DNA from: Leptolyngbya sp. FACHB-8
GTDB taxonomy: Bacteria; Cyanobacteriota; Cyanobacteriia; Elainellales; Elainellaceae
Reading direction: 5' to 3'
Length of the DNA: 48,918 nt
Assembly (NCBI RefSeq): GCF_014695575.1
Contig: NZ_JACJOO010000090.1
Span: 1 to 48,918 of the forward strand
A program made the translations under genes and the position numbers. The notes beneath the pieces were generated by a model. It ran no database searches, had not been told where the DNA came from, and saw nothing but the letters and a program-made list of their open reading frames with translations. Positions 8,416-48,762 of this stretch are shown here, piece after piece (position 1 is the first letter of the stretch; each line of letters opens with the position of its first letter).

Positions 8416-8515
8416 ACTAGTAGGCTACGGCCTAAGTCCGTAACCTATTTTTCAGTGGGGGTGCGAAGCACCCCCACTGAAAAATAGGTTATATATTTAC
8501 GCCTCAGCGTACTAG
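8416..8515 (+). repeat. Family E palindromic element, copy 1
   Basis: The ends ACTAGTAGGCTACGGCCTA and CGCCTCAGCGTACTAG are shared, in reverse orientation, with the element at 48660-48762. The heart is a perfect 23-bp stem (8442-8464 with 8468-8490) with a GAA loop; apex 8463-8469 is GCGAAGC. The stem differs from that of copy 2 while remaining self-complementary. The remaining gap to 9052 is AT-rich and holds no gene I can support. Confidence 0.75.
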
Positions 8516-14908: not shown

Positions 14909-15032
14909 AACCTCAGTTCGGGTTAAGGGCTTTTTCGAGTGCCGCGCTTCGCGCGGCACTCGAAAAAGCCCATTATTGTGTGCGCGTCGCGCACGCAATA
15001 ATGGGCGGTTCGGCTTATCCCGAACTGACGTT
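14909..15032 (-). repeat. Family A element, copy 2 (reverse orientation)
   Basis: A 124-bp copy beginning AACCTCAGTTCGGGTTAAG and ending CTTATCCCGAACTGACGTT. It contains two hairpins whose apexes are GCGCTTCGCGC (14946-14952 is GCTTCGC) and GCGCGTCGCGC. It is flanked by the direct repeat AAATT at 14904-14908 and 15033-15037. It is inserted 23 bp after the phytochrome stop. Confidence 0.85.
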
Positions 15033-18373: not shown

Positions 18374-18497
18374 AACGTCAGTTCGGGATAAGCCGAGCCG
18401 CCCATTATTGCGTGCGCGTCGCGCACGCAATAATGGGCTTTTTCGAGTGCCGCGCGAAGCGCGGCACTCGAAAAAGCCCTTAACCCGAACTGAGGTT
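18374..18497 (+). repeat. Family A element, copy 3
   Basis: A 124-bp copy, AACGTCAGTTCGGG to CCCGAACTGAGGTT, in the same orientation as copy 1. Its two hairpins have apexes GCGCGTCGCGC and GCGCGAAGCGC (18454-18460 is GCGAAGC). It is flanked by the direct repeat AAGT at 18370-18373 and 18498-18501. Confidence 0.85.
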
Positions 18498-18510: not shown

Positions 18511-18592
18511 CAATTAAACATAAGACCCGGAATGCTGTGCCACCTGCAAAGCGGGCAGCACAGCATTTAGGTCTTATGTTTAGTGACGCCTA
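18511..18592. repeat. Family D palindromic element, copy 2
   Basis: The outer stem 18515-18527 pairs with 18570-18582 and the inner stem 18531-18540 with 18558-18567. It shares AATTAAACATA and TATGTTTAGTGACGCC ends with the copy at 361, but its inner stem has a different sequence. Confidence 0.65.
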
Positions 18593-24140: not shown

Positions 24141-24147
24141 TTATTAA

Positions 24148-24221
24148 CGGGCCAGGAGGGATTCGAACCCCCGACACCGTGGTCCGTAGCCACGTGCTCT
24201 AGTCCACTGAGCTACAAGCCC
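24148..24221 (-). tRNA. tRNA-Arg(ACG), copy 1
   Basis: A 74-nt cloverleaf on the minus strand (GGGCTTG acceptor, D arm AGCTC, anticodon stem CGTGG/CCACG with loop CTACGGA, T arm with TTCGAAT). The anticodon is ACG, normally modified to ICG, reading CGU/CGC/CGA. The 3' CCA is not encoded. Acceptor position 6-67 is a T-T mismatch in both copies. It is 195 bp from copy 2. Confidence 0.93.
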
Positions 24222-24283
24222 ATCTCACAACTTCTTACTATACCACGATTGAGATGCAATACCTAGTCCCGTAAGCCTTTAGC

Positions 24284-24355
24284 CAGCAATTCTCAGTATG
24301 GGCATCAAAGCCGAGATTTGACTCTCAGCTTTGAAGCTCAAAATGAGAATTGCTG
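24284..24355. repeat. Short family B element between the two tRNA-Arg genes
   Basis: CAGCAATTCTCAGTATG (24284) to AAAATGAGAATTGCTG (24355) contains only one of the two hairpins (AAGCCGAGA / TCTCAGCTT). AGCCTTTAG and AGCTTTTAG flank it, a near 9-bp direct repeat. Confidence 0.65.
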
Positions 24356-24408: not shown

Positions 24409-24415
24409 TTATTAA

Positions 24416-24489
24416 CGGGCCAGGAGGGATTCGAACCCCCGACACCGTGGTCCGTAGCCACGTGCTCTAGTCCACTGAGCTACAAGCCC
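24416..24489 (-). tRNA. tRNA-Arg(ACG), copy 2
   Basis: Identical in sequence to copy 1, 268 bp to the right, with matching terminator and 5' flank (CATCTCAC, TTCTTACTATACCA). The flanks differ at a few positions. The block is a tandem duplication of about 140 bp that includes its own promoter-proximal and terminator sequence. The remaining 24490-24796 holds no gene. Confidence 0.93.
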
Positions 24490-24796
24490 ATCTCACGAGT
24501 TCTTACTATACCATAGTCGAGATGGTCTCTGCAAGAACCGCGCAACACATTTGTTTTTGTCATTCAAACCCAAACCGCTGCGCCTTACTAATAATAACTT
24601 GATGGGGGAACATTTTTAAGCCTGTTTTTTCGGAAAATTTTCTAAATATTTTCACATCCACTTTGGGGAGAGGCGGGCTGCGTTATATTCCGTTTCTTCG
24701 TTTCCAAGATGACAAGATCAGTCATAACGCTGAAGCCATGAATCCAGTACGGTGGAGGAAGGCGCACAGAATATCGCTCCACATGGGTAAAACGTT

Positions 24797-31320: not shown

Positions 31321-31443
31321 AACCTCAGTTCGGGTTAAGGGCTTTTTCGAGTGCCGCGCGTCGCGCGGCACTCGAAAAAGCCCCTTATTGCGTGCGCGTC
31401 GCGCACGCAATAAGGGCGGTTCGGCTTATCCCGAACTGACGTT
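31321..31443 (-). repeat. Family A element, copy 4
   Basis: A 123-bp copy, AACCTCAGTTCGGG to CCCGAACTGACGTT, in the same orientation as copy 2 (14909). It is flanked by GAAT (31317-31320 and 31444-31447; TTGAAT with shared T's). Both hairpins are intact. Confidence 0.85.
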
Positions 31444-31683: not shown

Positions 31684-32658
31684 ATGATGGCCGATAAGGA
31701 GCGACAGAGGGAATGGCCTGACGCTGTAGCCGTGAAGCAGAAGGCGTTGGAATTGGGTTTTCATAAGGTGGGAATTGCGGCAGTAGATGGCTGGGATCAG
31801 GCCGTTGCTGTGCATCTTCAACGGTGGTTGGATCGGGGGTATCAGGCGGATATGGCCTGGATGGCGCGCCCGGCTCGGCAGGATGTGCGTCAGGTGATGC
31901 CGGGAGTGCAGTCAGTGATTGCCGTGGCGTTGAACTATTACGCAGGGCAGGAGCGATCGCCCGAACCCGGTCATGCCAAGATTGCGCGTTACGGTTGGGG
32001 GCGCGATTACCACCGGGTAATGGATAAACGCCTGAAGGCTCTGACCCGGTGGCTGTTAGAGCAAGGGGATGGAATTGAAGCTCGCTATTATGCTGACACA
32101 GGCCCCATTCAAGATAAGGTTTGGGCTGAGCGGGCCGGATTGGGATGGATTGCGAAGAACAGCAATGTGATTACGCGGGAGTATGGCTCCTGGGTGTTTT
32201 TGGGGGAGGTGTTAACGAATGTGCCCCTGATCCCAGATTCTCCCCATACGCAGCATTGTGGAACTTGCACTCGCTGCCTGGAAGCGTGCCCAACGGGGGC
32301 GATCGCCCAACCCTTTGTTGTCGATGCCAACCGCTGCATTGCTTACCACACGATTGAAAACCGAGCGGAAGATCTGCCAGAAGCTCTCAAACCGAATCTG
32401 CAGGGTTGGGTGGCGGGGTGTGACATTTGTCAGGATGTATGTCCCTGGAATCAACGGTTTGCCCAACAAACAGATGTGGCCGACTTTCAGCCATACCCGT
32501 GGAATGTCAACCCAACTTTGGCGGAACTGGCAGAGTTGTCGGATGAGGAATGGGGCGATCGCTTTCAGGGTTCTGCCTTGCGGCGTATCAAGCCAGCCAT
32601 GCTCCGACGCAATGCTCAGGCGAATTTGGAGTCCCAGAATCTAACATCAGAGCCTTAG
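31684..32658 (+). CDS. queG: Epoxyqueuosine reductase
   Basis: QueG performs the last step of queuosine tRNA modification, reducing epoxyqueuosine with cobalamin and two [4Fe-4S] clusters. The 324-aa product (ATG 31684, GGAGG at about 31672) has [29 protein letters not shown] (cobalamin/active-site region with the conserved Asp). The two cluster motifs are [17 protein letters not shown], followed by [12 protein letters not shown], and [12 protein letters not shown]. It is complete and single. The last codons and TAG stop overlap the left end of the family C element at 32654, so the element supplies the stop codon context. Confidence 0.94.
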
Positions 32659-32762
32659 GAGATTTCTGAGAAACAATATCCCCATTATTTGGAAAAAAGG
32701 CGCGGCGAAGCCGCGCCTTTTTTCCAAACAATGGGGAAGTTCTTATCTGGAAATCTCCTTAG
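32654..32762. repeat. Family C palindromic element, copy 2
   Basis: A 109-bp unit with ends CTTAGGAGATTTC and GAAATCTCCTTAG (perfect 13-bp inverted repeats). The heart is 32680-32706 with 32710-32736, 26 of 27 bp paired, with GAA loop and apex GCGAAGC (32705-32711). The outer ends and outer stem resemble copy 1 at 7-113; the inner stem differs. It overlaps the queG stop codon. Confidence 0.75.
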
Positions 32763-48659: not shown

Positions 48660-48762
48660 ACTAGTACGCTGAGGCGGAAATCCATCACCTATGTTTTTGT
48701 GTGGGGTACTTCGCACCCCACACAAAAACATAGGTTGCGAACATAGGCCGCAGCCTACTAGT
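48660..48762 (-). repeat. Family E palindromic element, copy 2
   Basis: ACTAGTACGCTGAGGCGG (48660) to CCGCAGCCTACTAGT (48762) is the reverse orientation of 8416-8515. The heart is a perfect 21-bp stem (48687-48707 with 48715-48735). ACCTAT/ATAGGT at its base is shared with copy 1; the upper stem differs. 48763-48918 has no supportable gene. Confidence 0.75.

Follow-up and report, generated by a model that had tools for sequence, protein, structure and literature searches.

Arm-to-arm copying as a probable source of covarying stems and flipping loops in the palindromic hearts of cyanobacterial MITEs

The two arms of the palindromic hearts in small mobile elements of Leptolyngbya sp. FACHB-8 change together, and the loops between the arms occur in both orientations. 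Comparison of the copies makes it probable that both features arise by copying from arm to arm at the DNA level, which also flips the loop and proceeds by template switching or recombination, in otherwise ordinary MITEs. A preliminary description of the window (the whole stretch of 48,918 nucleotides analysed here) had offered gene-conversion-like copying of one arm from the other as the first of two alternatives, and the inverted loops favour it, as they point to DNA-level copying or inversion. The same description knew of no standard element class with this behaviour, a view that we could not uphold: family E looks like an IS630-type MITE, and REPINs, template-switch stems and concertedly evolving arms have already been published.

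The elements of the window and the nature of family E

The window is contig C90 of a 6.93-Mb draft genome in 95 contigs (G000, 99.5% complete; the own genome below). Compared with NCBIfam, 25 of its proteins belong to housekeeping and transporter families, and GCGATCGC, the cyanobacterial HIP1 octamer, occurs 62 times where 0.65 occurrences are expected. The minus strand carries two tRNA-Arg(acg) genes (24147-24222 and 24415-24490), separated by about 190 nt in which a hairpin (24284-24355) lies. In the window, 38 hairpins score at least 13, against none in each of three first-order Markov simulations, and the hairpin families C, D and E of the preliminary description are present at the places given below.

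The first copy of E occupies 8417-8515 on the forward strand, running from CTAG to CTAG with CTA and TAG as flanks; the element inside the likely TA duplication spans 8420-8512. Its heart, of type c (8441-8491), has perfect 24-bp arms (8441-8464 and 8468-8491), a GAA loop and a paired change, TCAG/CTGA, that is absent from all other type-c copies read. The second copy (48661-48761, element 48664-48758) lies in reverse orientation and has a heart of type a1 (48687-48735) with arms at 48687-48707 and 48715-48735 and a one-arm change adjoining the tip. The copy of C at 7-113 carries a heart of type alpha with perfect 32-bp arms (27-58 and 62-93) and a TTC loop, and that at 32654-32762 a heart of type beta with arms at 32679-32706 and 32710-32737, one mismatch and a GAA loop. 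Family D is represented at 361-447, where 33-bp arms (365-397 and 405-437) with one mismatch enclose a 7-nt loop, and at 18511-18592, where the ends are related to those of the first copy and the heart is degraded; it gave only five matches in the 1.22 Mb read. The hearts had been called perfectly self-complementary, which is true of the first copies of E and C, nearly true, with one mismatch each, of the second copies of E and C and the first of D, and untrue of the second copy of D. They had also been called interchangeable: the two C copies do combine common ends with unrelated hearts, but the two E hearts, different as they are, can be aligned as relatives within one family. A further hairpin family with changing loops is formed by the palindrome GGGCTTTTTCGAGTGCCGCGC, found at 14927-14971, 18435-18479 and 31339-31383 with the loops ttc, gaa and gtc.

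The left end of E, CTAGTAGGCTRCGGCCTA, occurs in the own genome at 125 places with up to two mismatches (reversed control 0) and at 156 with up to three (reversed control 8). The stretches read, picked for their E copies, total 1.22 Mb or about 18% of the genome. The element pattern matched 104 times there, and four matches that are not E (three ends of another IS and one other element) were removed, leaving 100 copies. E is 99-101 bp long and ends in imperfect terminal inverted repeats, CTAGTAGGCTRCGGCC / GCCTCAGCGTACTAG; it thus has the small size and inverted ends of an IS630-type MITE and, being so small, no coding capacity. IS630 elements prefer CTAG. Since 93 of the 104 matches are flanked by CTA and TAG, E is a MITE, about 100 bp in length, that sits at CTAG sites, and TA is, from the flanking letters, likely to be its target duplication. 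Both E and C look like ordinary small non-autonomous transposons, and the ends of E look IS630-like.

Elsewhere, a match to the E end with up to two mismatches occurs, once or more, in 13 of 59 genomes, where the interiors differ or the matches are due to chance, and 13 of 290 other genomes have the exact degenerate end. Similar ends occur in three stretches of two cyanobacterial MAGs, and viral contigs gave no match to the E end. G001, the only same-genus genome among those compared, has no E end at up to two mismatches; set against an 8-kb stretch, it gave two long matches, 70 and 73% identical, and two short matches on a hairpin. E has probably multiplied recently in this lineage.

In G007, an E-like end with two mismatches adjoins an ORF fragment that matches DDE_3 over the cut-off (E-value 1.6e-12) and the NF033545 IS630 transposase under its 100-bit cut-off (E-value 8.7e-13, 48.4 bits). 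Two related IS ends of the own genome break off at five and six contig ends, and a seventh place, which is internal, resembles another small element. The body of an autonomous element behind these ends was not found in the own genome, and a 26-aa transposase end had no match in Pfam. The DNA read around the single DDE_3 match of the own genome has only one weak end-like match, which is not an E end.

At L093:10720-10827 a C element lies inside an E element, which gives their relative age and an insertion site of C at TTA. In one E copy, at L078:18651, a deletion between short repeats (TTCGCA) has removed most of one arm, as slippage at a hairpin would be expected to do.

Paired changes in the arms

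The copies of E and C were collected by their ends, so that the sample is not biased by hairpin perfection. Over 100 E and 23 C copies the ends are kept and the heart varies while remaining mostly paired, so that in this general form the preliminary description holds. The 22-nt arms are perfect in 67 of the 100 E copies. Five copies with an indel or a rearrangement were dropped from the comparison of hearts, and the other 95 fall into seven types (b 32, a 31, a1 15, d 8, c 6, f 2, g 1).

When the stem of each copy was compared with that of its own type, 12 cells (9 distinct) carried the same change in both arms and 39 (25 distinct) a change in one arm, 11 of the 39 being one stem-foot base common to types a and a1; no site was altered in both arms and yet unpaired. 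If the arms changed independently at the one-arm rate, only 0.06 paired cells would be expected. Permuting the right arms within types gave a mean of 1.8 paired cells and a maximum of 7, and none of 10,000 permutations reached 12. This is the excess of paired changes over independence looked for in a template-switch hairpin, and it bears out the earlier statement that the arms change together. A second count, which took in 45 type-a and type-a1 copies (34 distinct), found 97.2% of 782 cells paired and 17 cells changed on both sides, compared with a shuffled mean of 5.1 and with 0-1 when the partners were slid; 12 of these 17 are the single difference between a and a1, and the number of pair types is no higher than in the shuffles (9 vs 9.2).

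The same change can be found in the one-arm state in one copy and in the two-arm state in another (L110:11675 and L101:6164; L106:552 and L081:9994), as expected of precursor and product. The paired changes include transversions, T>G in type c and T>A private to the first E copy of the window, which count for arm copying because they have no wobble intermediate. In family C, 27 matches were listed and 23 used, the length rule having removed a 65-nt copy and chance matches. They show 21 paired cells (15 distinct) vs 6 one-arm cells (5 distinct), as plain counts without a permutation control, and 13 of the 21 sit in three divergent copies.

Hairpins with a score of at least 15 number 450 across 1.2 Mb. 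Between nearest neighbours in hairpin families (250 pairs) we counted 113 paired cells, 86 one-arm cells and 3 changed on both sides yet unpaired, but these hairpins were picked for good pairing, and the case therefore rests on the E and C sets ascertained by their ends. Among distinct arms, G exceeds C in the 5' palindrome arm in 185 vs 34 (1.2 Mb of the own genome) and in 38 vs 14 (193 kb of G058, a genome of another genus), while the T/A bias of that arm runs in opposite directions in the two. The G/C bias is not a leading/lagging effect, because a palindrome is identical on both strands.

Could the hearts simply be a few fixed subfamilies spread by insertion, whose arms match because each began as a perfect palindrome? 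The preliminary description had named this as an outcome that would speak against it, and for the broad heart types it remains true: there are seven types in E and two, unrelated to each other, in C, and most assigned copies equal or nearly equal their type. Part of the interchangeability of the E hearts is therefore due to subfamilies spread by insertion. Within the types, however, paired changes keep arising. Private paired changes in single E copies refute fixed subfamilies as the full explanation; in addition, several E types can be aligned and are separated from one another by paired changes or paired indels, and the two commonest types each contain both loop orientations. As an account of the whole pattern, fixed subfamilies are thus very unlikely.

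Loop orientation and fixed loci in another genus

We read the loop relative to the asymmetric ends in the 90 E copies with an intact GC-NNN-GC tip and found 47 GAA and 43 TTC. Nine groups comprising 42 copies are identical outside the loop, and six of them contain both forms; within these groups 70 of 133 pairs are discordant (53%), vs 50% over all pairs. The loops of family C are GAA in 12 copies, TTC in 9 and something else in 2. Loop inversion in E is either far commoner than substitution or occurs at transposition. A setting of loop orientation by replication direction was considered as well; the absolute orientation, a weak proxy, agrees in 12 of 32 within-locus pairs and gives no sign of such an effect.

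Hairpins are also dense in the genus of G058, which belongs to the same class: 193 kb contain 59 of them, whereas the single-contig genomes G003 and G159 have 0 and 1 in 100 kb. Nineteen genomes of the window's family besides G001 have 0 or 1 hairpin per short stretch (1.5-20 kb). Orthologous sites were anchored on both flanks, and an orthologue was found for 19 of 41 hairpins in three G058 stretches; these hairpins belong to other families, in a genus other than that of the window. Changes were counted in same-length orthologues only, that is at 14 of the 19 loci, and are paired at 12 stem sites and confined to one arm at 26, which are counts without a null model. Of the 12 paired sites, one belongs to a decayed hairpin and four to a single conserved hairpin that may have a function; in the pairwise table, 9 cells are altered on both sides yet unpaired. 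At some orthologous loci the palindrome has decayed (L124:10402, L125:15617). The hairpin at L124:10964, with its self-complementary TATA tip, is nearly perfect across many species and may be functional.

Four fixed loci have inverted loops (TAT/ATA, TTTAG/CTAAA, AAA/TTT and TTT/AAA), and another four of the 14 are unable to show inversion because their loops are self-complementary (TATA, CATG twice, CTAG). A GAA/TTC pair with identical arms separates G226 from G107, and another GAA/TTC pair G191 from G254. Loop inversion, the second sign of a template-switch hairpin, is therefore seen in E, in C and at fixed loci. As both signatures occur at fixed loci, they do not need transposition and can develop in situ, at least in the genus of G058.

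The own genome is a draft of 95 contigs with many repeats, and short reads cannot phase a palindrome, so that loop orientation and arm agreement might be errors of assembly. We regard such an artefact as extremely unlikely. Among 24 contig ends compared, those that share sequence do so over 113-195 nt; as the element measures 99-101 bp, the assembly word was probably the longer of the two and an error of orientation is unlikely; private paired changes need real variants in both arms, and the same signatures are found in separately assembled genomes of another genus.

The stem might instead be kept paired by selection, as an RNA terminator, a stability element or a transposition structure, and the paired changes would then be ordinary compensatory mutations. 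The hairpins are indeed very stable (single-stranded DNA folding of the two window E copies gives z = -12.1 and -9.7), the conserved hairpin at L124:10964 could have a function, and the accessible text of the REPIN study terms the capacity to form a hairpin a critical feature of these elements (PMC3116915). Selection on pairing may operate at some hairpins. It predicts no reverse-complement loops, however, yet in E the two forms are almost equally frequent and randomised among otherwise identical copies, and at fixed loci they are inverted; selection alone is insufficient, because it leaves the loop flips unexplained. Moreover, unpaired one-arm states are tolerated (the 39 cells above), paired changes appear in otherwise nearly identical copies where 0.06 are expected, and Rfam at gathering scores over the window matched two tRNAs and nothing else. 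As an explanation of the pattern, selection on the stem is improbable.

Mechanism, wider meaning and known systems

Arm copying would start from the palindrome at the centre of each E and C element, which is near-perfect and in most cases has a 3-nt loop. During DNA synthesis, the growing strand would switch to the other arm and copy it as template, rewriting one arm to match the other, so that a point mutation in one arm would be either erased or copied across as a paired change. Where the switch crosses the tip and continues on the other strand, the loop would be inverted, GAA becoming TTC. The hearts could in this way drift in sequence and yet remain palindromes, while transposition would spread particular hearts as subfamilies. 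We infer that no selection on the stem is needed. Changes confined to one arm are the more numerous both in E (39 cells, against 12 paired) and at the fixed loci (26 sites, against 12 paired), which means that correction either lags behind mutation or remains incomplete.

In place of replication template switching, the two arms could recombine or be processed as a cruciform, with the tip inverted or an extruded hairpin mended by mismatch repair. This overlaps with arm copying, to which we gave our main confidence by either route, and taken by itself it is possible, though rather less likely than not to be the actual route. The arms are long and often perfect, and inversion between short inverted repeats yields identical loop states; the available texts on chloroplasts describe loop inversions flanked by inverted repeats (PMC2903610) and hairpin formation thought to aid them (PMC3123225). 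A simple reciprocal inversion, however, shifts a one-arm mutation to the other arm and leaves it unpaired, so that an extra repair step is required. Template switching accounts for all of these observations and, rather than arm-arm recombination, is our inference for the enzymatic step, although the data fit both.

More tentatively, as a serious possibility that falls somewhat short of probable, the hearts may be self-healing neutral palindromes: arm copying would mend and re-spread mutations fast enough, and flip the loop often enough to hold its orientation at equilibrium, for very stable and strongly covarying hairpins to persist without any function. This state would be common to several mobile families unrelated to one another and to two or more genera within one class. 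Covariation between paired bases counts as the best evidence that an RNA structure is functional. If this reading is true, near-perfect covariation can come from mutation alone, and the hearts would serve covariation-based RNA discovery as a natural negative control and as a warning. With hundreds of parallel element copies, arm correction and loop inversion would become countable and timeable.

The hairpin nuclease SbcCD may be missing from the own genome: among 26 genomes of the class, SbcD (TIGR00619) falls under the cut-off in this genome only (G000:C7:134702-134974, 39.8 vs 77.65 bits). Loss of SbcCD as a general cause of the hairpins was rejected, as nine genomes of the hairpin-rich other genus carry SbcD, and so does G001, which nevertheless has 8 hairpins in 22.6 kb (in stretches partly chosen by hairpin match).

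E shares with cyanobacterial IS630-type MITEs a length of about 100 bp, imperfect terminal inverted repeats and a high copy number; its CTAG site, with a likely TA duplication, and the similar ends beside the DDE_3/IS630-like transposase fragment in G007 would fit such elements too. It differs from such MITEs in its arm-matched, mutating palindromic heart and its flipping loop. Nezha, reportedly a named cyanobacterial MITE, is set beside E by name and not by sequence; ISY100 is described, in the accessible part of its source, as a Tc1/mariner/IS630 element. Quasipalindrome correction, or template-switch mutation, is reportedly also the subject of van Noort 2003; in it, as proposed for E, an arm is rewritten from the other arm, with paired changes and loop inversion. 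REPINs consist of two inverted GTAG-tagged REP sequences and are linked to the RAYT transposase. The ends of E also contain GTAG, but a REPIN is a REP doublet, whereas in E one central palindrome is enclosed by terminal inverted repeats and the ends are IS630-like. According to the accessible text of Bertels and Rainey 2011, REPINs have conserved ends and a variable hairpin-forming middle in which compensatory changes are common, and loop inversion, a feature of E, does not figure in that text (PMC3116915).

Monttinen and Loytynoja 2022 (PMC8794818) hold, in the part available, that template switching maintains stems, that copying of arm from arm gives paired changes in one event and that the interstrand route inverts the loop. 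Compensatory change with loop inversion is termed there the strongest possible support and 'extremely rare' in RNA genes, in contrast to the mobile elements of family E, where loop orientation is randomised. Mutations at yeast quasipalindromes lengthen the identity of the arms, as the accessible text states (PMC3820800). The chloroplast hairpin inversions at trnH-psbA, as far as the available text goes, concern a loop between inverted repeats with both orientations within species; unlike E, they involve one locus and a 25-27-bp loop, with no arm covariation described there (PMC2903610). Nematomorph mitochondrial genes contain perfect inverted repeats with concerted arm evolution, for which template switching has been proposed; these palindromes are coding and mitochondrial and are not MITEs, and the accessible text describes no loop equilibrium such as that of E (PMC6649704).

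In a literature search whose coverage leaves out most subscription papers, none of the matches listed had a title or abstract start on arm-corrected, loop-flipping MITE hearts in cyanobacteria, and none was found that joins cyanobacteria with perfect palindrome, hairpin, intergenic and repeat. The mechanism is already in print, with REPINs, chloroplast hairpin inversions and nematomorph palindromes as its close precedents, and what the elements described here add is the density, the loop equilibrium and the natural replication.
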